Assembly (NCBI GenBank): GCA_944392325.1
Contig: CALXWI010000012.1
Location: 1 to 36,980 of the forward strand
Length of the DNA stretch: 36,980 nucleotides
DNA from: an uncultured Alphaproteobacteria bacterium
Lineage (GTDB): Bacteria; Pseudomonadota; Alphaproteobacteria; RF32; CAG-239
Reading direction: 5' to 3'
Positions 5,272-31,845 of the stretch are shown piece after piece. Both the position numbers and the translations under genes were made by a program. Below the pieces are notes generated by a model, which saw only the letters and a list, made by a program, of their open reading frames with translations, had not been told where the DNA came from and did no database searches. Every line of letters begins with the position of its first letter. The stretch's first letter is position 1.

Positions 5272-6009
5272 TTACCATGAAGTGAGAATTGGGCAGGCAT
5301 AGCGATGGTAGTTGTCAGCGTAGTAACTGCTAACGAAACCGTCGACCTGACGCACGGTGTAGTGGTTGCCGTTGTTAGCTATGGTAGACGACCAACAATA
5401 GTCTTCTGTCATGATTGTCCCAATATTTGTTGAAAGCAAATTGTTTATGGTTGCTCTATTGTTATGTAATGTTACTAATTGGTCTTTAGTCGGCAATCTT
5501 CCTTTAAGATTACCGCAGAAAATATAGCTAGAGCATTGACTATTAGCATTAGTCCAAATCATATTGCCTAAATCTTTTACAGCCACATAGAAATTCATAC
5601 CGCTAGCTTTAACACCGACCACTGTACGGTTACAACAGTATACTTCACTATATGCTCCATTACTTTTGTTAGCGCAAAGATTAATCTTCTGACAGCTGCC
5701 GTTGTTCCATTCATAGCCGCTGGTACAGGAACATTTTTTGTATAGGTTGCTGCAAGAATCGCCACTTCCGATTTCTCCGGTTCCTTTACAAGTTAGGGTG
5801 AAACCTTCTTCTTTGCAAATTGTTTCCTTAGTTGGCAAGCAGGCCCATTTGTTACCAAAGGGGCATTTTACCCCCTTTCCTCCGTTGCAAGAGGTTTCTG
5901 TATAACCTAATGTTTCACAATCCTGCGTAGCAACACATTGAGCAAATATTAAATTTGGGGTTAAGGACAGACTTGTCCCGATAAGTAAAAATAATTTAGT
6001 ATTAGTCAT
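5272..6009 (-). CDS. Secreted Cys-rich protein with DUF1566/lectin-like C-terminus (copy 1)
   Basis: I do not recognise a named gene. The 245-residue product starts with a signal peptide (MTNTKLFLLIGTSLSLTPNLIFA, then QC). A Cys-rich region of about 85 residues follows, with spaced CxxxGY and C.GTGE..SG..C motifs. The C-terminal half resembles DUF1566/Lcl domains (C-type-lectin-like fold): FYVAVKDLG, then LPTKDQL, WSST and a final PILTSW. The ATG at 6009 is preferred because AAGG lies 8 nt upstream; an in-frame GTG at 6018 is too close to it. A paralogue at 11502-12311 shares the signal peptide, the architecture and a 210-nt leader. The last 40 codons diverge strongly between copies and are rich in NNC codons. 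The protein is probably exported; its ligand is unknown. Confidence 0.85.
   Translation of the reverse strand: MTNTKLFLLIGTSLSLTPNLIFAQCVATQDCETLGYTETSCNGGKGVKCPFGNKWACLPTKETICKEEGFTLTCKGTGEIGSGDSCSNLYKKCSCTSGYEWNNGSCQKINLCANKSNGAYSEVYCCNRTVVGVKASGMNFYVAVKDLGNMIWTNANSQCSSYIFCGNLKGRLPTKDQLVTLHNNRATINNLLSTNIGTIMTEDYCWSSTIANNGNHYTVRQVDGFVSSYYADNYHRYACPILTSW
5275..5394 (-). other. Candidate hypervariable segment of copy 1
   Basis: These are the last 40 codons, from WSST to the conserved PILTSW. In the 31 codons after WSST, 19 end in C and all four Asn codons are AAC, whereas a preceding stretch of the same gene (FYVAVKDLG to CGNL) uses AAT for all five Asn. Compared with the paralogue, the residues between the anchors differ at most positions. 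That pattern is expected if a template rich in AAC codons is mutated at adenines, as in diversity-generating retroelements. No template repeat or reverse transcriptase is in the window, so this is inference. Confidence 0.45.
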
Positions 6010-6037
6010 AACACACACCTTATCTTTTTCTATAGTT

Positions 6038-6071
6038 AAAAAGAACGCCCCTCAAAGATATTCGAGGAGCG
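6038..6071 (-). terminator. Terminator at the end of leader RNA copy 1
   Basis: An 11-bp stem with two G-U pairs and a 4-nt loop (6071-6046) is followed on the minus strand by TTCTTTTT. It lies only 28 nt before the ATG at 6009, so the gene can be read only by passing this terminator or from a promoter not seen here. The bases 6050-6043 can alternatively pair with 6218-6211, which would open the stem. Confidence 0.75.
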
Positions 6072-6247
6072 GGTGTTGAACGACTGTTGAGTTGGACAGC
6101 CCCGACGCTTTCGTGCAGAGCCTTATTAACCGCCGGCACCCGCATATCATATACGCAAATGCCAGCATATTATTTTTTAAGTCGCTATGCTAAAACGACT
6201 CAACTCAAAAGGGCGTTCAAACCCTGACCGACAATCTTTATCGGCTA
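6038..6247 (-). ncRNA. Structured leader RNA, copy 1
   Basis: This is a predicted transcript of about 210 nt, reading leftward. From its 5' end it has a small hairpin (6244-6228), then a closing helix in which about 6224-6214 pairs with 6083-6072. Inside that is a helix of 8 bp (6208-6201 with 6094-6087) that closes a junction of three hairpins (6199-6181, 6166-6132 and 6122-6098). It ends with an intrinsic terminator. Several pairs are G-U on the minus strand and would be A-C mismatches on the plus strand, which fixes the orientation. Copy 2 at 12337-12546 keeps the fold with changed but still paired bases. I do not recognise the class; it could be a cis-acting attenuator of the downstream gene or a free-standing RNA. 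Confidence 0.75.
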
Positions 6248-6253
6248 AAGAAG

Positions 6254-6282
6254 AGTTTAGCATAGTAAAGCTTAAAAATCAA
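6254..6282 (-). promoter_or_regulatory. Promoter of leader RNA copy 1
   Basis: On the minus strand, -35 TTGATT (6282-6277) and -10 TAAACT (6259-6254) are 17 nt apart. The same spacing with -10 TACACT occurs at copy 2 (12581-12553). The predicted start is just before the first hairpin of the RNA. The stretch 6283-6350 between this and the tig terminator is AT-rich and shows nothing else. Confidence 0.6.
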
Positions 6283-7879: not shown

Positions 7880-7964
7880 TGGTGCAGGCGGAGAGACTCG
7901 AACTCTCACAGCTTGCGCCACCAGATCCTAAGTCTGGCGTGTCTACCAATTTCACCACGCCTGC
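7880..7964 (-). tRNA. tRNA-Leu (anticodon UAG)
   Basis: The minus strand folds as a class II tRNA of 85 nt with an encoded CCA. The acceptor arms are GCAGGCG (7964-7958) and CGCCTGC, followed by discriminator A. The D-arm contains AATTGGTAGACA, the anticodon loop has CTTAGGA (anticodon TAG), there is a variable arm, and the T-arm is GAGAGTTCGAGTCTCTC. It reads CUA and other CUN Leu codons. It lies directly upstream of tig. Confidence 0.97.
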
Positions 7965-11501: not shown

Positions 11502-12311
11502 TTACCACGAAGTGAGAACCGGGCGAACATAGAGAGCAACGTTGTAAGTATTGGCACGCACGGCGCCAAGAGAGGTACTCACACTGTAGTAGCGGTAGTC
11601 GACGCTGGTAGATGACCAATAGAATCCTTCAGTTAAATTTGTTCCTCCGTTTGTTGAGAGCAGAGTATTAAGAGAGAATTTGTTGTCATACATAGTGAGA
11701 AGTTGATCTTTAGTCGGCAAAGCCCCTCTCAAGTTACGGCAGAATGAATAGCTATAACAACCACTGTTAGCATTGTTCCAATTCATTAGACCTAAATCCT
11801 GCATTGCCACAAAGAAATTCATCTTAGGCGCCTTAACCGCCACAACTTTACCATCGCAATAATACAAATCGCCCTGCGCGCCATTTAAAACTTGCTGTTT
11901 GCAACTCCCATCTTTCCATTCATAGCCGCTTGCACACGAACATTGAACATATTTGCCATCGCAGGCAGAGCCTGCGCCACCGGAGTAGCCCGTGCCGGTG
12001 CAGGTATATTTATAGCTAGAATCGCAAGTGCAAGATTGATATTTACCGTTGCAGGTTTCACCATTGCCTCTCTCCCCTGCTCCGGTACAATCTTTATCAT
12101 AGCCTAATTTAATACAGTCCTGCGCGGCTGTTCCGCCACAGTACCAGCCCGAGCCGAACGGACACTTGACTCCCTTACCATTTGGGCATGAGCTCTGGGT
12201 ATAGCCCAGAGCATAACAGTCTTGGATGGGTGATACGCATTGTGCGTTCAATGTTTGAGGTAAAAAGGACAGACTTGTCCCGATAAGTAAAAATAAGTTT
12301 CTATTAGTCAT
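11502..12311 (-). CDS. Secreted Cys-rich protein with DUF1566/lectin-like C-terminus (copy 2)
   Basis: This is a paralogue of the 5272-6009 gene with no recognised name; 269 residues from the ATG at 12311. The signal peptide (MTNRNLFLLIGTSLSFLPQTLNA, then QC) is nearly the same as in copy 1. The Cys-rich region is longer and holds repeated modules of the form GxGxxCxGKYxxCxC, which also build the large protein at the right edge. The C-terminal DUF1566/lectin-like part keeps FFVAMQDLG, LPTKDQLLTMYDN, YWSST and RPVLTSW. The segment between WSST and RPVLTSW differs strongly from copy 1 and lacks two residues. The ribosome site is AAGG, 8-9 nt upstream of the ATG. Expression probably depends on read-through of the leader terminator. 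Confidence 0.85.
   Translation of the reverse strand: MTNRNLFLLIGTSLSFLPQTLNAQCVSPIQDCYALGYTQSSCPNGKGVKCPFGSGWYCGGTAAQDCIKLGYDKDCTGAGERGNGETCNGKYQSCTCDSSYKYTCTGTGYSGGAGSACDGKYVQCSCASGYEWKDGSCKQQVLNGAQGDLYYCDGKVVAVKAPKMNFFVAMQDLGLMNWNNANSGCYSYSFCRNLRGALPTKDQLLTMYDNKFSLNTLLSTNGGTNLTEGFYWSSTSVDYRYYSVSTSLGAVRANTYNVALYVRPVLTSW
11505..11618 (-). other. Candidate hypervariable segment of copy 2
   Basis: These are the last 38 codons, from WSST to RPVLTSW. In the 29 codons between WSST and the final VLTSW, 15 end in C, for example GTC GAC TAC CGC TAC TAC in a row, in a gene and genome that otherwise favour A or T at third positions. The equivalent segment of copy 1 has different residues at most positions but the same NNC bias. 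Interpretation as a retroelement-diversified region is inference. Confidence 0.45.
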
Positions 12312-12336
12312 CACACACACCTTATCTTTTATGGTT

Positions 12337-12371
12337 AAAAAGAACGCACCTTTGATAAAATCAGAGGTGCG
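12337..12371 (-). terminator. Terminator at the end of leader RNA copy 2
   Basis: An 11-position stem with one mismatch (12371-12345) is followed on the minus strand by TTCTTTTT. It differs in sequence from copy 1 but keeps the same length and position, 25 nt before the ATG at 12311. The alternative pairing with 12517-12510 is retained at 7 of 8 positions. Confidence 0.72.
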
Positions 12372-12546
12372 GGTGTTGAACGACTGCTATACGACAGCCC
12401 CGACGTTTTCGTGCAGAGCCTTATTAACCGCCGGCACCCGCATAAAATAAATGTATGCAAATGCCAGCATATTATTTTTAAGTCGTTATGCTTAACGACC
12501 CGTATAGGAGGGCGTTCAAACCCTAACCGATAATCTTTATCGGCTG
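12337..12546 (-). ncRNA. Structured leader RNA, copy 2
   Basis: This is the second copy of the leader, with the same order of helices as 6038-6247. The 5' hairpin is 12543-12527 (7 bp, perfect). The closing helix is about 12523-12513 with 12383-12372. The inner helix is CTATACG/CGTATAG (12507-12501 with 12393-12387), where copy 1 has an unrelated sequence that also pairs. Three hairpins and a terminator follow. Loops and junction strands (a TTAAAAATAATAT strand and GGTTAATAA) are nearly identical between copies, while helix sequences change together. This supports selection on structure rather than recent duplication alone. The RNA class is not recognised. Confidence 0.75.
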
Positions 12547-12552
12547 ATTAAA

Positions 12553-12581
12553 AGTGTAGCATAACAAAGGTTAAAAATCAA
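12553..12581 (-). promoter_or_regulatory. Promoter of leader RNA copy 2
   Basis: On the minus strand, -35 TTGATT (12581-12576) and -10 TACACT (12558-12553) are 17 nt apart, matching the copy 1 promoter in both position and spacing. Confidence 0.6.
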
Positions 12582-22809: not shown

Positions 22810-25800
22810 ATGTTGGCAAAATTGTTTAGAAAAACGAGGAAGGCGATTGTCTTTGTGACAATATACGCTTTCCTTCTGGCTACCTTGCCTGCTTATGCTT
22901 ATTTGCCGCCGATTAGCAATGCTCAGATGTATACTTTGGCGACTCAGGGTAATGTTCCTGCTTTGCGCGCTGCGGTACAACGTGGATTAAATATTGATAC
23001 GTTGGACAGGTATGGAAATACGGCTCTGTGTCATGCTATTTTGCAACGTAACTATACGGCTTATAATGCTTTACGTGCGGCTGGGGCTAATCCTTATCAT
23101 CCTTGTGTAAGAAACCTAAGAAATGGTTATTATGACTCTTTCTTGTCGTCTAAACGTGTGGTTCCGACAACGGCTAACTCTCGTGAAGCTTATGCTTATA
23201 TGGGGGAGGACGACTCTTGGTTCTCTGCTGCTGCATGGTGGACTTTGGGCGGAATTTTGCTCGGAGGTGCTTTAATATTAATCTTTAGCGGCGGCGGCGG
23301 CGGCAGCGGATATTATTTTCCGCAGTATAAATCTACTGATTATAGCTTGGGAGCTTTAGCCGGTACGAATCGTCCTGATTATCCTGCTGATTTGCCTTAT
23401 GATCCGGTTATTTTATTGGAGCAAAACGGTGGAACATTGACTAATGGTTCTGGCCCAGACTATAATTTGGGAGGCGATAATCCTGATGGTTGGGTAATTG
23501 CCAATGATGCTTATATTAAAGTTGATGGCGAATCTAAGCTCTTGACGGATTTGATTGATTTTAATAACAGCGCCTTGGAATATGGCGATTATATCCAAGC
23601 GGCAATGAAGGGTATCTATGGATCTACGGTGAATAACGGATATGCCGCTGATAACCCAAGGTATGACCCTAACAAAGATTATTTGATTACATTAGGGAAT
23701 AATGCAACAGCTTTAGTGGCTTTGGAAAATAGTGAAGCTAATAACTATTCTAAAATTAACATTAAGGCGGAAAACGGCACTATTGGCATGATTGCCAGTC
23801 AAGATTCAATTGCGACCAATGATATTAATGGGCAAATTAATATTAACTATATTGGCTCCAAAGATAATCATGGCGTTATCGGAATGTATGCCGATACCAA
23901 CTCTACAATCGTGAATAATGGGCTCATTATGGGGCAAGACCATTCTTCGGAGCCTTCGGCCGGAACAATTACCGGTATGCGCGGACAATTAATTAATCAG
24001 GAATTGGCTCCTTTTTCGAAGACTTATGTGAAGAATAATGGCAGAATCGAATTAGATATTGCGGCTGATAATCGTGAAGTAAAAACATCTTTAGTCGGTA
24101 TGGGAAGCTGGCTGGAAGATGAGTTCTTGAATGGGACAATGCTGCTTTCTCGTGCCGGAACAATTTATTTGGACAACTTGGGATCTATTCTTATAAATGT
24201 GGCCTTGAGCGGTTCAGGTACATATAATGCGGTCAGCGAGGACGGGACATCTTATTTGATGCAAGGAATCGGAGGCATTATCGGTATGCGTTCTGATGGT
24301 AATACCGTTGCAACCAATAGCGCTTTAATCGACATCAAAATTACAGATACCGGTGATGCTGAAAATACTGTCGCTGGTAATGCAGCTGGTATGCAGTCTG
24401 TTCATGGTGGAACTATTACTAATGAAAATACTATTAATGTTACGGGTGGAACCGGAAACTTTGGTATGCTCGCAGTCAGAGGAGAAGGCACAAACTCTGA
24501 ATTTAATAATGATGCTCATGAGCCGCGCCTAAATAACTACGGAACCATTAATGTTGATTCTGAAGGTGGTTTTGGTATGGCCTCTTTCAATGGTGGAGGT
24601 TCTGTAAACACCGGCACAATTAATTTGGCTAAGCAAGGAACCGGTATTCAACATGATACGGGGATGATTGCTAACAGTGGTAAAATTAATTTAGAGCAAG
24701 GCGGTGTTGGTATTGCAATGACACAGCAAGGTGATATTACCAATGAGCTGAATGGGGCTATATATATTGATAATGCCTTAGCAAATACTGATACTACTGA
24801 TGGGTCTGAGGGAGATGGCTCTGAGACCGCTGAAAAGAAAGAAAGTATTGGTATTTTGCAACAAAACGGAACCGTAATAAATGACGGAACCATAACTTTG
24901 GTTAATACAACAGGGGCTGAAAATACTATTTCTTATGGCATTAAATCAATGCAAGGAAATGTAACAAGCAGCAATACCATTACCATAAGTGATGCTAATG
25001 ATAGTTACGCTATCTCAGCTCAAAAAGGAAACATTACTAACAGTGGCGGAATAGTTATCAATAATTCTGACGGGGCCTTGGATGGCATTGGATATGGCTT
25101 GCTTACCGGTACAGGAAATATTGATAATAGCGGAACAATATCTATTGCTAATAAAAATGAGGCTTATGCTATATCTACAACAAATGGCAATATTACCAAT
25201 AGTGCGGCGCTTAACATTAGCGGACATAAGGGGACTATTTCTAAAACGGCTTATGGTATTAAGTCAGCTAAAGGTTCGGTTAACAACCAAGGCAATATCA
25301 ATATTACTGATACTAAAGACAGTTATGGTATTTCGGCTGAGAACGGAAATATTACCAATGATGGAAATATTACTTTAGACAATACTTCTGGCGCTTTAGA
25401 AGGCATCGGATTTGGTATTCAAGGCGGCGGATATATTCCTCCCTCATCTTCTAGCAGCGGCGGTGATGAAAGTAGCGGAAATGGGGCCAGCGACATTACC
25501 AATACCGGAAATATTACTATTTCAGATAAAAATCAGGCTTATGCGATTGCTACGGCTAATGGTGATGTGGTTAACTCTGGAGAATTAACCCTTAATGGTT
25601 CTCAGGGCGCATTATCTGAGCTTGGATATGGTATTGCGGTTGGTAATGGTTCGGTTAACAACTCGGCTGAAATCACAATTGCTAATACAAATAATAGTTA
25701 TGCTATTGCCATTGAAAATGGTGATATTACAAATACTGCTAACTTAACCATTAGCGGTAGGAAGGGTAATATTTCATCTATGGCGTATGGACTTAAATCA

Positions 25801-28800
25801 GCCAAAGGTACTGTTAACAATAAAGGTAACATTACTATCACTGACACTAAAGATAGTTATGGTATTGCCGCTGAGAATGGTAATATTACCAATGAAGGAA
25901 ATATTACTTTGGATAATACTTCTGGCGCTTTAGAAGGCATTGGATATGGTATTCAAGGCGGTGGATATGTTCCTCCCTCTTCTTCTAGCAGTGGTGGCGA
26001 AGGATCAAGCAGCGGTGGCGAAAGTTCTAGCAGTGGAGGTGCTTCAACTGGTAGCAGTAGTAGCGGGGCTAGCAATGTTACTAATACCGGAACTATTACA
26101 ATTTCGGATAAAAATCAGGCTTATGCGATTGCTACGGCTAATGGTGATGTAATTAACTCAGGAGTAATTACATTAAACGGAGCTCAGGGCGCATTGTCTG
26201 AGCTTGGATATGGTATTACTGTTGGTAATGGTTCGGTTAATAACTCGGCCGAGATTACAATTACCAATACCAAAGACAGTTATGCTATTGCCGTAGAAAA
26301 TGGCGACATTACCAACACCGGTGAGATTAATTTATATAATAAGACCGGAGCTTTAGAAGGTATTGGCTATGGCTTAAAGACCGGACGCGGCGATATAACC
26401 AGCAATGCAGATATTACGATTTCAAACAAGAACGAAGCTTATGCCATCGCAACGGATTATGGTAATATTGATAGTAACAACGCTATTGTTATTAACAACA
26501 ATACCGGTGCTAATGGCAGTATTGCTTATGGTATCAAAGGTGGCAACGGGTATATTAACAGCAATAATACCATTACGATTAATAATGCAAATGAAGGATA
26601 CGGTATTTATACCTCTAATGGTCAAGTTACAAATAATGCGGACATTACTTTAACTAATAGTCAGCAGGCTCAAAATAAGACTTCTTATGGTATTAAGGCA
26701 GATGCCGGATCTGTTGTGAACAATGCTGATATCTATATGAATGTTACCGGTGATACTACTGGTGAAGTTAGTAATGATTCTGGTTCGTTTGGTATTTGGG
26801 GCGGCGAAGCAAATATTGTTAACTCGGCTAATAGTAATATTGTGTTTACACAACGTGGTAACGGTATGCATACAGAATCCGGAAGTAACGACAACTATGG
26901 TACGATTCATATGCAAGATGGCGGAACCGGTATGTCGACGGCTTCAGGTAATGCCACAAACCACGAAAATGCAACCATTACAATTGATGATACCGGTGTG
27001 GGTATGAAATCAGGCAAAGGTAATGCGATTAATGACGGAACGATTAATATTACCGGTACGTTATCTACGGGTATGGAATCGGAGCGTTATGCCGTAAACA
27101 ATAATATTATTAATGTTACCGGATATAACTCTAAAGGTATGAGTGTTGTTACGGAAAATGCTCAAATTGTTAACAACGGTCAAATTTTGTTGAACTCTGA
27201 CCATAATGGATTGTTGAACTATGGTATGTATGGTGAAAAAGGAATTTATAGCCGTATGGTCAACAACAAAGATATTTTGATTACCGGTCGTGAATATCCA
27301 TCTACCGAAAATATTGCTTATGGTATGTATCTAGATGAAGGTGAAGCCAAAAACTATGGCAACATCACTTTAAACAAAATGTTTGGCTATGGTATGTATT
27401 TGGTTACCGGTGGTACTTTGGATAACTATGGCAATATTGCGTTAAATTATGGCGGTGTTGGTATGGGCGCCGGTGGCACCCCTGAATCGCCGGCTACTTC
27501 GGCTATGATTAACCATGAAGATAGTGCTATTACGGCTAACGGGCAGTTTTCTTATGGTATGAAAGGCGAAGGAACAGCTACGGCTTGGAATGACGGCTCA
27601 ATTGAGATTACTGGAGATGATTCTTATGGTATCTTCACTACTAACGGAAGCGGAACTAACACCAGCTCGATTGTAATGAACTCTTCAAATAATACCGGTA
27701 TGCACAGTGTCGCAGCTGATACCATAAACAAATCGACCGGTGTAATTACCATTAACGGAGAAAGCTCTGTCGGTATGAGCACACAAGACGGCGGAACCAG
27801 CGATACATCAAAAGTTGGGGCTTCAAACGAAGGTATTATCAACTTGGAGGCTAGTGCGACATCTTCTACCGGTATGACGGTCTTGGGGAGCGGTGTGGCT
27901 ACCAACAACAACCAAATTAATGTAAAAAGTACTAACTCTTCAGGTATGTGGGCACAAGGTGAAAGTGGAACGGTTATTAATGCCGGAACAATCACCGTTA
28001 CCGGAAATGAATCCTCTGGTATGATGGCTACTGCCGGAACTGCTACCAATAACAAGGAAATTATTATTCAGTCTGATGACTCTTATGGTATGTATGCTAA
28101 TGGTGATACGGCTAAGATTGTTAACGGTATGAATGGTACTATTACTATTGATGACGCCAATGATAGTAAATATGCTATGTATGTAAAGAATGGCGAAGGT
28201 GTAAATGAAGGCACCCTCACCTTCTCTAAACAAGGCTTAGTGGCAATGTATGTGGAGAAAGGCAGCATTGAAAATAATCGCACAATTAATTTGAGCGGTG
28301 ATAACTCTGTTGCTATGCAAGGTGCCGGCGAAAACAATGCTACTTTGACTAACGTGGCCGGAAAAGATGGTCCCTTGGATTATGAAGATTTGCCAACATT
28401 CTCGACCGACTTGGGAATTATTATCAGCGGTAATAATTCTACAGGTATGAAAGCCGGTGGAAACACCACCGCAACCAATGATATTAATGGCGTGATTACC
28501 GTTAATGGACCGAACTCTTATGGTATGGTGGCAACCGGTGTTACTTTGGGTGGTGAAACTATTTATGGTACAGCTATCAACAATGGTTTGATTATTGTCA
28601 ATGATTCTACTTCACAGGCTTTATATGCTGATGGTGGTATTGTTCAAAACGGAACTTCAGGTATGATTTATACCAATGGAAGTATTGCGATTAATGTAAG
28701 CTCTGGTACAGGTACAAACCTTGGTATTATTCGCAATGATAATGGTAACTTTACCGCAATGTATGCAGAAGGCGGCACTATTGATAACCAAGGACGTATT

Positions 28801-31800
28801 ACTTTAAACGGTGATGCCTCTGTTGGTATGGAAGTAAACGGCTCGGCTACTGCTACCAACTCTTTGAAAACAAGTAGAATTGAGGTCAACGGTGCAAACT
28901 CCATCGGTATGCAGGCCAAAAAAGGTACGGCGTCAAACTCTGGTGTTATCAATGTAAACGGCGGTACAGGGTCGGTAGCCATGCAGGCAGACGGCGGAAC
29001 TATTACCAATGAATCTACCGGAGCGTTATCGTCTTCAGTTGAAAACGGAGTATTGATGCTGGTAAACCAAGGTGATGGTATCAATAAAGGTAAGATATCT
29101 TTGGATACAATGGGTATTACCGCGATGAGAGCGTTAGCTGGATCAATTACCAATAACAGCGGGGCAAAGATTGCATTGACTGGTAATAATGCTGTGGGCA
29201 TGGATGCGGCTGGAGGAACAGCTCAGAATAATGGCAACATTAGTATCGATGGTGATGGTGGTAAGGCGATGTCATCAAGCAATGCAGGAAAAGCCATAAA
29301 CAATGGACAGATTGATGTTTATAATGCTAATGCTTATGCTTTATATACTAACGGAGGAACAATTACAAATACTTCTGCCGGAAAAATTAATACCGTTGGT
29401 TCTTCAGCTATGTATGTAGCTCAGGGTGATGCGTATAACGAAGGTAACATTGAAAACTCAAACCAAAATTTCCATGCTATCCATGTGGTGAACGGAACAG
29501 GTTCAAATACGGGGACGATTAGCTTATCTGGTGAAGGAGCTTCCGGTATTTACATCCAGAGCGGTACAGCAACAAACTCAGGCGGAACGATTACTATGAC
29601 CGGAACCGGAAATACCTATGGTATTAATGGTTTGGATGGTACGGGCAGTGTAATCATCACTAACAGTGGCGCTATTGATGTTTCCAGCGGTATGGGTATT
29701 GCAAATAACAATGGCTCTGTCACCAATGAAAAAGTTGGTCGTATAACCGTTAACGGAGTTGGTATTTATACAGTAAATGGAAGCGCAACAAATGAAGGTA
29801 TTATTAAGGCTTCTGGAAGTGGGGCTATCGGTATGCAATCTACCGGTAGCGGAGGTCTCAATAACTCTATTGGCAATATTACGGTAGATGGTACTTCTTC
29901 TATCGGTATGTCTGCTCAAGGCGGATCTATTATAAACGATTCAACAATTTCTGTTACCGGACAGCAGAGCATTGGTTTGTTTAATGACGGTGGGACTGTA
30001 TCTAACGGCAATGCGGCTTCATTAAGCGTTGAAGGTAAAGATGCCGTCGGCATTCAAGTGGTTAATGGAGGTAAGGCTACCAACCAAGGGAACTTAATGG
30101 TTCAAGGTAAATATGGTATGTTTGCTAATAATGGTAGCTCAGTTACAAATACGGTTTCTGGAACAATTACTTTGCGTAATGGAGAGTACGCTATGTATGC
30201 AACAGGAGGATCAAAGGCAACCAATGAAGGTACTATTATTTTGCAAGGTGGTGGTGCATGGGGGTATTGTGATGCTTCTTCTGTTTGCGTGAATACCGGT
30301 AAGGTAGAAACGCCTACTGCTACAATGAGCCTATTTAGCGCCGGAAGAATGTTGGTTGGAAACGGTGGAAACTTTACGGCGGCTAATATTGAAGGTGATT
30401 TAGGTATTGATGCGACGACTATTGACGGAAACGAGGCTGTATTTAAAAATGCTGTAACTTCGTCTAATGTAAACAACCTGAATGTTTATGGCTCTGCTTG
30501 GTTCAATGATGTATCTTTGGTTGAAAGTGAAGATGAGGTAGAAAAAGCGGCTACGGATAGCGCCTCTGAGAACGATGCAGAAGCTCAACCTGTAGCTAAA
30601 CTTGCAGCTCGTCCTATGATGTTATCGATGGCCGCTCCTATAGACATTGCTTTAACAGAAGATGAGACTCAAGAAGATATTATTAGTGATACTACGGATA
30701 GTGTAAATGTTAATAATAATGATAACGGTTCCGAAGATGAAAAGCAGATGCACAACTACGATATCGTGGTTAAAAAAGGTCGCTTGAGCACTATCTTGGC
30801 TAATAATGTTGGTATTGAAGACCGCAGCGTATTGGATAAGCTTGATAATGCTTATGAAGCTGGCGCTCAGTCGCAGGTATTTGATGCTATGAAGTCGGCT
30901 TATACTAATGATGAACTCAATTCTACTATTAAGAAAGAGCTCGGACTTGACTTCTTTGCTAACTTTGCTAAGCAAAATTTGGATGTTATTAAGAGTGCTG
31001 ACCGCCAAATTAACACTGCTATCTTTAACAATCGCAGTGATAAAGAAGTTCGCTTTATGACCGGTTATGACTTTATGTCTCGTAGTCAGAAAGCTACCAC
31101 TTATCTTGCTGATTATGAAGACCAGGCTCACTCTATCTTCGGTATGTTAGATCGTAAGTTTAATGATCACTTCCGCTATGGTGTTGGTGCGATTATGTCT
31201 AGCCTGAACAGTGAATATGATAGTGATGCTTCTTCTCGTGATGAAGTAATGTTCCAAATTTTGTTCCCATTGACAGCGCAATTTGAAAATACCAAGATTG
31301 TGTCAGTTCCGCGAATCGGTATGGGATTTGGTGAATATACTCGTCGTACATTCTCTGGAAAGTATGAGGCTGATACAACTAACTATTACTATGGTATTAC
31401 CAACGAGGCTCGTCATAATATTGATATGGGTTGGTTTGGCTTAGAGCCTACTTTAGAGTTCAATGTCTTGGGTATTCGTCAAAACAAGATTAAAGAGAAT
31501 GGGGCTCTTGAAGTTGACGCTAGTGATAGTTTATCAGTTGAGGCTGGTGCTGGCTTGTATGCTACCAAATTGTTTGAATTTGGTGAGGGGCATACTCTTA
31601 AGCTCCGTGCCGGTGGTACAATTTATCATGAATTGGCTGACCCGTACAAAGCTCAGACTGCTCGTCTGCGTGATGCCGGTATAAATTACAACATCAACAG
31701 TTATGATGCTGACAGAACTAGAGGTATTTTGTCATTGCGTGTAGATTATAATTACAACAAGTTCAACTTCTACAGCGAGTTCAACAAATACATCGAATCT

Positions 31801-31845
31801 GATGATGCTTATGCCATCAATGCCGGTATGGGGTACAAGTTCTAG
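22810..31845 (+). CDS. Giant autotransporter with N-terminal ankyrin-like region
   Basis: This is a predicted surface protein of 3011 residues. It opens with a signal peptide (residues 1-30, ending PAYA). Ankyrin-like repeats follow at about residues 36-98 (NVPALRAAVQRGLNIDTLDRYGNTALCHAIL). A strongly hydrophobic helix at about residues 141-160 runs into a Gly-rich stretch. The passenger, about residues 175-2560, is a beta-solenoid of very many units of roughly 20-25 residues (GxITNxGxIxI...YGI or GMxA). An acidic linker is at about 2575-2660. The C-terminal autotransporter beta-barrel ends in the typical aromatic residue (YAINAGMGYKF). Two near-identical blocks 534 bp apart include Ser/Gly linkers after GGGYxPPSSSSSGG. 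It is likely an adhesin; the ligand is unknown. Confidence 0.9.
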   Translation: MLAKLFRKTRKAIVFVTIYAFLLATLPAYAYLPPISNAQMYTLATQGNVPALRAAVQRGLNIDTLDRYGNTALCHAILQRNYTAYNALRAAGANPYHPCVRNLRNGYYDSFLSSKRVVPTTANSREAYAYMGEDDSWFSAAAWWTLGGILLGGALILIFSGGGGGSGYYFPQYKSTDYSLGALAGTNRPDYPADLPYDPVILLEQNGGTLTNGSGPDYNLGGDNPDGWVIANDAYIKVDGESKLLTDLIDFNNSALEYGDYIQAAMKGIYGSTVNNGYAADNPRYDPNKDYLITLGNNATALVALENSEANNYSKINIKAENGTIGMIASQDSIATNDINGQININYIGSKDNHGVIGMYADTNSTIVNNGLIMGQDHSSEPSAGTITGMRGQLINQELAPFSKTYVKNNGRIELDIAADNREVKTSLVGMGSWLEDEFLNGTMLLSRAGTIYLDNLGSILINVALSGSGTYNAVSEDGTSYLMQGIGGIIGMRSDGNTVATNSALIDIKITDTGDAENTVAGNAAGMQSVHGGTITNENTINVTGGTGNFGMLAVRGEGTNSEFNNDAHEPRLNNYGTINVDSEGGFGMASFNGGGSVNTGTINLAKQGTGIQHDTGMIANSGKINLEQGGVGIAMTQQGDITNELNGAIYIDNALANTDTTDGSEGDGSETAEKKESIGILQQNGTVINDGTITLVNTTGAENTISYGIKSMQGNVTSSNTITISDANDSYAISAQKGNITNSGGIVINNSDGALDGIGYGLLTGTGNIDNSGTISIANKNEAYAISTTNGNITNSAALNISGHKGTISKTAYGIKSAKGSVNNQGNINITDTKDSYGISAENGNITNDGNITLDNTSGALEGIGFGIQGGGYIPPSSSSSGGDESSGNGASDITNTGNITISDKNQAYAIATANGDVVNSGELTLNGSQGALSELGYGIAVGNGSVNNSAEITIANTNNSYAIAIENGDITNTANLTISGRKGNISSMAYGLKSAKGTVNNKGNITITDTKDSYGIAAENGNITNEGNITLDNTSGALEGIGYGIQGGGYVPPSSSSSGGEGSSSGGESSSSGGASTGSSSSGASNVTNTGTITISDKNQAYAIATANGDVINSGVITLNGAQGALSELGYGITVGNGSVNNSAEITITNTKDSYAIAVENGDITNTGEINLYNKTGALEGIGYGLKTGRGDITSNADITISNKNEAYAIATDYGNIDSNNAIVINNNTGANGSIAYGIKGGNGYINSNNTITINNANEGYGIYTSNGQVTNNADITLTNSQQAQNKTSYGIKADAGSVVNNADIYMNVTGDTTGEVSNDSGSFGIWGGEANIVNSANSNIVFTQRGNGMHTESGSNDNYGTIHMQDGGTGMSTASGNATNHENATITIDDTGVGMKSGKGNAINDGTINITGTLSTGMESERYAVNNNIINVTGYNSKGMSVVTENAQIVNNGQILLNSDHNGLLNYGMYGEKGIYSRMVNNKDILITGREYPSTENIAYGMYLDEGEAKNYGNITLNKMFGYGMYLVTGGTLDNYGNIALNYGGVGMGAGGTPESPATSAMINHEDSAITANGQFSYGMKGEGTATAWNDGSIEITGDDSYGIFTTNGSGTNTSSIVMNSSNNTGMHSVAADTINKSTGVITINGESSVGMSTQDGGTSDTSKVGASNEGIINLEASATSSTGMTVLGSGVATNNNQINVKSTNSSGMWAQGESGTVINAGTITVTGNESSGMMATAGTATNNKEIIIQSDDSYGMYANGDTAKIVNGMNGTITIDDANDSKYAMYVKNGEGVNEGTLTFSKQGLVAMYVEKGSIENNRTINLSGDNSVAMQGAGENNATLTNVAGKDGPLDYEDLPTFSTDLGIIISGNNSTGMKAGGNTTATNDINGVITVNGPNSYGMVATGVTLGGETIYGTAINNGLIIVNDSTSQALYADGGIVQNGTSGMIYTNGSIAINVSSGTGTNLGIIRNDNGNFTAMYAEGGTIDNQGRITLNGDASVGMEVNGSATATNSLKTSRIEVNGANSIGMQAKKGTASNSGVINVNGGTGSVAMQADGGTITNESTGALSSSVENGVLMLVNQGDGINKGKISLDTMGITAMRALAGSITNNSGAKIALTGNNAVGMDAAGGTAQNNGNISIDGDGGKAMSSSNAGKAINNGQIDVYNANAYALYTNGGTITNTSAGKINTVGSSAMYVAQGDAYNEGNIENSNQNFHAIHVVNGTGSNTGTISLSGEGASGIYIQSGTATNSGGTITMTGTGNTYGINGLDGTGSVIITNSGAIDVSSGMGIANNNGSVTNEKVGRITVNGVGIYTVNGSATNEGIIKASGSGAIGMQSTGSGGLNNSIGNITVDGTSSIGMSAQGGSIINDSTISVTGQQSIGLFNDGGTVSNGNAASLSVEGKDAVGIQVVNGGKATNQGNLMVQGKYGMFANNGSSVTNTVSGTITLRNGEYAMYATGGSKATNEGTIILQGGGAWGYCDASSVCVNTGKVETPTATMSLFSAGRMLVGNGGNFTAANIEGDLGIDATTIDGNEAVFKNAVTSSNVNNLNVYGSAWFNDVSLVESEDEVEKAATDSASENDAEAQPVAKLAARPMMLSMAAPIDIALTEDETQEDIISDTTDSVNVNNNDNGSEDEKQMHNYDIVVKKGRLSTILANNVGIEDRSVLDKLDNAYEAGAQSQVFDAMKSAYTNDELNSTIKKELGLDFFANFAKQNLDVIKSADRQINTAIFNNRSDKEVRFMTGYDFMSRSQKATTYLADYEDQAHSIFGMLDRKFNDHFRYGVGAIMSSLNSEYDSDASSRDEVMFQILFPLTAQFENTKIVSVPRIGMGFGEYTRRTFSGKYEADTTNYYYGITNEARHNIDMGWFGLEPTLEFNVLGIRQNKIKENGALEVDASDSLSVEAGAGLYATKLFEFGEGHTLKLRAGGTIYHELADPYKAQTARLRDAGINYNINSYDADRTRGILSLRVDYNYNKFNFYSEFNKYIESDDAYAINAGMGYKF
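25248..26315 (+). repeat. 534-bp tandem internal repeat within the autotransporter gene
   Basis: A unit of about 178 codons occurs twice in a row. Matching landmarks such as KSAKG.VNN.GNI and GGGY.PPSSSSSGG are exactly 534 bp apart (25250 to 25784, 25440 to 25974). The Ser/Gly linker after PPSSSSSGG is longer in the second unit, so the DNA also varies by short in-frame insertion. It suggests recombination or slippage that changes protein length without breaking the frame. Confidence 0.75.

Follow-up and report, generated by a model that had tools for sequence, protein, structure and literature searches.

The leader described here is a real pseudoknotted RNA, present in dozens of copies in the genome of one uncultured alphaproteobacterium, and on the evidence of sequence and of analogy it probably represents a divergent, host-domesticated branch of the sRNA-Xcc1-type RNAs that works in the manner of the C4 antisense RNA of phages. 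Two of the copies lie on the minus strand of the window, by which is meant the whole stretch of 36,980 nucleotides that was analysed (contig CALXWI010000012.1, positions 1 to 36,980), at 6038-6247 and 12337-12546. An initial annotation of these two copies had recognised a conserved structured RNA with paired base changes and was right about both the RNA and the covariation, but it missed the pseudoknot, the pairing with the Shine-Dalgarno (SD) region and the kinship to sRNA-Xcc1.

Layout of the two leaders

Both leaders were found where they had been annotated, and each contains the 5' hairpin, inner helix, three enclosed hairpins and terminator that had been proposed for it, the last being a hairpin with a U-run after it. 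Both are far more stable when folded than their dinucleotide shuffles, with z scores of -7.2 for copy 1 and -8.0 for copy 2. All of the elements that follow are on the minus strand. Copy 1 is preceded by a promoter-like element (6254-6282) made up of TTGATT (6282-6277), a 17 nt spacer and TAAACT (6259-6254), in which a TG precedes the second hexamer by one base; the corresponding element of copy 2 (12553-12581) is TTGATT, 17 nt and TACACT. The sequences that had been read as a promoter are therefore present in both, but a consensus scan called neither, so that the case for a promoter comes from conservation across copies, the copy 1 type of element being kept across those of the same genome.

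Read downstream, copy 1 begins with P1, a 5' hairpin predicted by folding (6228-6244) whose sequence varies among copies while its pairing is kept, and continues with P2 (6210-6225), a GGG/CCC hairpin the loop of which holds strand a (6220-6214; covariation helices 1 and 2), and with strand b (6201-6208), which forms the 5' side of the inner helix by pairing with 6094-6087. The P4 hairpin (6181-6199) has a loop that, as covariation indicates, can pair with the sequence immediately 5' of P5, and P5 itself (6132-6166; covariation and fold) carries in its 3' arm an SD-like strand, S (GCGGGTG, 6143-6137). P6 (6098-6122; fold), which alignment equates with the middle hairpin of the Rfam family RF02221, is followed by P8 (6082-6101; covariation helix 6), whose loop is b' (6094-6087), by strand a' (6076-6082; covariation helix 2), which forms a pseudoknot with the P2 loop, and by P7' (CACCCGC, 6069-6075; covariation helix 5 and a permutation test), the partner either of S or, in part, of the downstream SD. 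The leader ends in an intrinsic terminator (6038-6071), for which a scan gave an 11-pair stem and a U-run (TTCTTTTT), and beyond it lie the SD sequence AAGGTGT (6015-6021), partly complementary to P7', and gene 1 (5272-6009, start ATG at 6009), the product of which is a secreted Cys-rich protein with a weakly Lcl_C-like C-terminus.

Copy 2 has the same order of elements. The P2 hairpin (12509-12524) with loop a (12519-12513), strand b (CTATACG, 12501-12507, pairing with 12393-12387), the P8 hairpin (12382-12399) with that b' strand in its loop, and the adjoining a' (12382-12376) and P7' (12375-12369) strands, together 12369-12382, were placed by sequence, and the P4 (12482-12499), P5 (12430-12468, with S at 12441-12435) and P6 (12396-12420) hairpins by fold and sequence. 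The terminator hairpin with its U-run (12337-12370) is found by folding and is missed by the scan; its stem has a mismatch. The SD sequence is again AAGGTGT (12317-12323) and gene 2 (11502-12311, start ATG at 12311) encodes a paralogous secreted Cys-rich protein.

Covariation and the two hypervariable helices

The inner helix, TTGAGTTG/CAACTCAA in copy 1 and CTATACG/CGTATAG in copy 2, keeps its pairing in 45 of the 45 complete copies that were first parsed, with b:b' pairing over 7-12 bp and a:a' over at least 5 bp, and in copies from other genera the b helix reaches up to 15 bp. The generality of this pairing means that the variable helices are under a strong constraint to pair and under none as to sequence. 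A scan of pairing columns in the alignment of 45 copies gave well supported runs for a:a', P4, P5, P8 and S:P7', together with several short runs of 3-4 pairs that resemble chance or alternative pairings. Over 32 pairs in six helices 99.6% were paired and the covariation was 0.439, compared with 0.157 +/- 0.009 in shuffles (0 of 500 reaching 0.439) and at most 0.10 when the partners were slid, these shuffles, like the permutation tests reported below, leaving shared ancestry in. The second variable helix, a:a', is a pseudoknot between the loop of P2 and the strand just before the terminator; five of its six pairs change on both sides while all 45 sequences remain 100% paired, and it was hidden from a comparison of the two window copies because they are identical there. 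The b:b' helix is also a pseudoknot, because b' is the loop of the P8 hairpin. Since the b helix varies in length, its pairs were counted within the homogeneous class II (one of the four sequence classes set out below), where seven of eight have no unpaired cell, changes on both sides occur in six and one-sided changes in none. In 145 copies the b helix contained 52 internal G-U wobbles as against 22 A-C, which favours the transcribed strand, so that the claim that G-U pairs fit only the minus strand is true statistically but not absolutely.

The variability of these two helices stands out from the rest of the molecule. Among the class I copies of the genome, identity is 36% in b and 45% in a compared with 86% in the rest of the RNA, the class II values being 64%, 61% and 97.5%, respectively; b strands are distinct in 23 of 25 copies. 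The alignment also contains conserved single strands. Two other readings of the leader were rejected: a leader peptide, since the ATG-started frame (ATGCTGGCA...) shifts between class I copies when read by eye, and a pairing of promoter and loop (TATGCTA and TAGCATA), which was dropped because the class II loops become GGTAT and the promoter is unchanged.

Copy number and distribution

A DNA search of the genome (1.53 Mb in 83 contigs) gave 31 leader matches and a covariance-model search gave 33, of which 32 were strong, one of the strong matches being cut by a contig end; shorter leaders without the P4 hairpin add 14 copies, and the total is at least 46, a number so high that a chance origin is excluded. 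The copies fall into four sequence classes: I, to which both window copies belong, II, III and the short class IV. Six contigs start or finish in or near leaders, which suggests that the repeated leaders interrupt the assembly and makes the copy number a minimum. At four loci two or more leaders occur in tandem or closely spaced. There are also apparent recombinants, any of which may be an assembly error: in one a plain promoter is joined to a class IV ribosome-binding site (RBS), in three the 5' half of a leader runs into unrelated sequence with a similar promoter at its end, and in one a leader is joined to internal sequence of a surface gene.

A covariance-model search of related genomes, which the initial annotation had suggested, found the RNA in 97 of the 126 genomes of the family, representing 15 of its 16 genera, and in 118 of 153 genomes of the order. 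Elsewhere in the Alphaproteobacteria its occurrence is patchy, with matches in 12 of 289 genomes of the class, including members of six families (f74, discussed below, among them), and a wider model added further weak matches, a few of them elsewhere in the Alphaproteobacteria and one outside that class. The named relatives are metagenome-assembled genomes labelled as uncultured Alphaproteobacteria, several of them from animal gut, e.g. roe deer colon and sheep rectum. When viral contigs were scanned for exact patterns, which is a weak test for diverged copies, no leader of the gut clade was found.

Potential pairing with the Shine-Dalgarno region

Two alternative partners are open to P7', the downstream SD region and the S strand of the P5 3' arm, and all three strands change together between lineages: S, P7' and SD read CGGGUG/CACCCG/GGGUGUU in one, and CGGAUG/CAUCCG/GGAUGUU, CUGGGAG/CUCCCAG/GGAGUU and CCAGAAG/CUUCUGG/GGAAGUU in others. 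The complementarity of P7'/a' to its own RBS scored 14.30, as against 12.05 +/- 0.20 (maximum 12.6) when loci were permuted, and an excess survives within the AACATCC subset (14.77 vs 13.79 +/- 0.18) and within the AACACCC subset (14.39 vs 13.26 +/- 0.22), so that even the adjoining a' base tracks the RBS. In family f74 the complementarity extends over most of a' and reaches the start codon; in class I, the class of the window copies, the pairing of P7' with the SD extends over only about 5 bp. The fold and the blockade of the RBS are mutually exclusive, because P7' cannot pair with both, and the terminator with its U-run is located between P7' and the SD. These features point to a switch at the level of translation, coupled to an intrinsic terminator. 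For b' a target at the RBS was absent both from classes I and III (10.12 vs 9.94 +/- 0.22 permuted) and from the family as a whole (10.69 vs 10.88 +/- 0.22 permuted), and half of the C4 logic has accordingly been lost in the gut clade.

Probable kinship to sRNA-Xcc1

At Rfam's own cutoffs the whole window and eight distant leader loci yielded tRNA only (in the window, a tRNA gene on the minus strand at 7883-7964), and the earlier verdict that the RNA belongs to no known class holds to that extent, the family-wide RNA escaping Rfam at its cutoffs. Below them, relatives of the window copies match sRNA-Xcc1 (RF02221) in exact register, and as judged by alignment the 3' half of the leader is homologous to that RNA. 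The gathering cutoff of RF02221 is 53 bits and all relatives of the leader fall below it: two of them score 42.3 and 40.7 bits (E 1.7e-4 and 4.1e-4) and a third 41.4 bits (E 3.9e-4), while the class II leaders of the genome reach 32-33 bits, the best score in that genome is 37.3 bits and per-genome E values are 4e-4 to 7e-4 for some of its leaders. As for the window, copy 1 gave no match at E<=10 and its contig as a whole gave none. The structure of RF02221 comprises a closing stem P7, P6, P8 with loop b', and a', in the same order as in the leader, and alignment and covariation agree on this. In the reverse direction a wide model of the leader, R2, finds true sRNA-Xcc1 loci at full length with a common 3' end (four of four matches in 84 kb); these four matches are in the RF02221 register with E values from 4e-5 to 0.11, and intermediates form a chain. 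The proposed kinship thus draws on reciprocal, in-register, sub-cutoff matches and on a common layout.

The layout extends beyond the part that Rfam models. At 23 loci that match RF02221, an upstream hairpin loop is complementary to a' and an upstream strand to b', and the surroundings of the downstream SD hold further copies of a and b. Scores for the upstream region were 16.43 for a' (12.05 +/- 0.46 permuted) and 14.83 for b' (12.58 +/- 0.43), and those at the RBS were 14.52 for b' (10.77 +/- 0.41) and 12.91 for a' (11.28 +/- 0.43), the pattern being true on average and plain in many of the loci but not in every one. At one of them CCGAAAACC and CAAACAG are internal and CCGAAAAGGAGCAAACAG lies around the SD, before the ATG. 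Several of the genes downstream of RF02221 loci encode what we take, from their translations, to be phage regulators of the BRO, KilA or Rha type.

sRNA-Xcc1 itself was described as an 88 nt RNA in Xanthomonas campestris, detected by Northern blots and with mapped ends (PMC2996969), and other reports place it upstream of symE, within an integron cassette (PMC12444791), and in Xylella, where C4 loci are found separately next to it (PMC12189769). A literature search found no paper that links it to a leader of this kind or that explains its mechanism.

Downstream genes

The leaders sit before genes in almost all copies, and these genes are far from a random sample. A signal- or TM-like N-terminus, as defined by a home-made hydrophobicity rule, was present in 82% of 95 downstream protein clusters and in 26% of 148 neighbouring ORFs (p 4.5e-18). 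The downstream genes include OMP beta-barrels, lipoprotein-like, PMP-repeat, prepilin-like and Cys-rich proteins, and from their sequences the products are mostly secreted and would probably be located at the surface. Outside this rule, leaders were also seen before genes for an EcoRI-type methylase, a glycosyltransferase and an ArsR-type regulator. In the genome under study approximately 65 paralogs, genes 1 and 2 among them, share one secreted Cys-rich N-terminus, an unusually large family for 1.5 Mb, and it is to this family that the leader-bearing genes belong. Eight leaderless paralogs have in common another promoter (TTGAAAGATATTTT...TTATAAT) and the RBS GGTGTTATTATG. A hairpin in the signal-peptide codons (GGGACAAGTCTGTCC; at 12281-12266 of the window and at the equivalent position of gene 1) recurs in most paralogs of this genome, leaderless ones included and across classes of leader. 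Elsewhere in the window (22810-31845) there is a 3011-aa repeat-rich protein resembling an autotransporter.

A possible mechanism and its alternatives

Were the leaders to work like C4, the transcript would start just upstream and fold into a knot through a:a', b:b' and S:P7', the pairings shown by covariation. Most transcripts would stop at the terminator, and in those that read through P7' and the end of a' could pair with the SD region and block translation. Since P7' is the strand common to the internal and the external pairing, the two exclude one another and the RNA may act as a switch in the cell, and the b helix, and in part a, could serve as address codes that keep near-identical RNAs off each other's partners. 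A broader proposal, put forward tentatively on sequence grounds, is that a phage-type antisense RNA has been domesticated to give orthogonal control over a repertoire of proteins that are secreted and probably lie at the surface, the many near-identical RNAs, each with a b code of its own and with no cross-reaction, each gating one of the paralogs and some paralogs escaping by way of a plain promoter.

Much of the same evidence could be read as that of a riboswitch class, in which the conserved junction strands would bind a metabolite or ion and the exchange between S, P7' and SD, together with the terminator, would form the expression platform. The cis position before genes, the conserved single strands, a terminator and SD that both adjoin the switching strand and a regulon mostly of secreted-protein genes all sit comfortably with such a view, but it is an unlikely one, as the homology is to a small RNA with no reported ligand, true sRNA-Xcc1 members have antisense-type a/b copies at the RBS, and a ligand pocket leaves hypervariable a and b strands within a 97% identical RNA unexplained. 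It seems still less likely that the terminated transcripts of about 200 nt are trans-acting sRNAs that use a' and b' on other mRNAs, the downstream gene being incidental. A strong terminator before the gene and a b strand that is nearly unique to each copy are what such sRNAs might show, and sRNA-Xcc1 is called trans-acting in the title under which PMC12444791 cites Chen et al. 2011; but a' and b' are already paired within the RNA, P7'/a' fits its own downstream RBS better than those of others and the class of downstream gene is far from random. That the strands are DNA-level inverted repeats of an invertible or recombining element, to which the locus-specific b/b' repeats and the five apparent recombinants might point, is very improbable given the bias of the wobbles to G-U on the transcribed strand, six conserved helices that are mostly not repeats of each other and a genome with no reverse transcriptase (the absence of RVT_1 from it also ruling out a diversity-generating retroelement).

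If the leaders are indeed domesticated relatives of sRNA-Xcc1, then what was an orphan leader of uncultured gut bacteria is tied to an RNA that has been mechanistically obscure, and sRNA-Xcc1 gains a testable mechanism with a/b decoys in the precursor, a'/b' in the RNA and a/b targets around the downstream SD. One genome would offer a natural set of dozens of putative RNA switches with locus-specific helices, and the system bears both on how bacteria handle large repertoires of secreted proteins and on the domestication of phage immunity-type RNAs.

Comparison with known systems

The gut leaders have in common with sRNA-Xcc1 the P7 closing stem, the middle hairpin, the hairpin with b' in its loop and the a' strand, with the register matching in both directions, and in RF02221-matching loci, too, loop a of P2 and strand b are found upstream. 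The gut branch differs in its added P4 hairpin (classes I-III) and terminator with U-run, in having no b target at the RBS, in preceding mostly secreted-protein genes, in its multiplication within one genome and in its scores, the best relatives reaching 41-42 bits against the cutoff of 53 and the window copies being unmatched. With SD-sequestering riboswitches the leader shares mutually exclusive anti-SD pairing and a terminator, but it has no known ligand and its specificity helices are hypervariable.

In the C4 antisense RNA of phages P1 and P7 the RBS is blocked through binding of the target mRNA by loops a' and b', with specificity coming from a'; the RNA has three stems, is processed at its 5' end by RNase P at the closing stem and occurs in many copies in one Acinetobacter genome (PMC5320573). 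A related name, c4-a1b1, is also in use (PMC2864571). Neither of the C4 families in Rfam (RF01695 and RF02944, c4-2) matched any leader or sRNA-Xcc1 core, the one c4-2 match, in a locus found with R2, lying away from the core. The name c4-a1b1 suggests that upstream copies are known for C4 too. The leader thus differs from C4 in lacking a match to its models and, in the gut clade, a b target, complementarity to the RBS being found there for a'/P7' but not for b', whereas RF02221-matching loci have both. In C4 loops a' and b' act around a downstream RBS and the variable loop sets the target, and the leader would work along similar lines.
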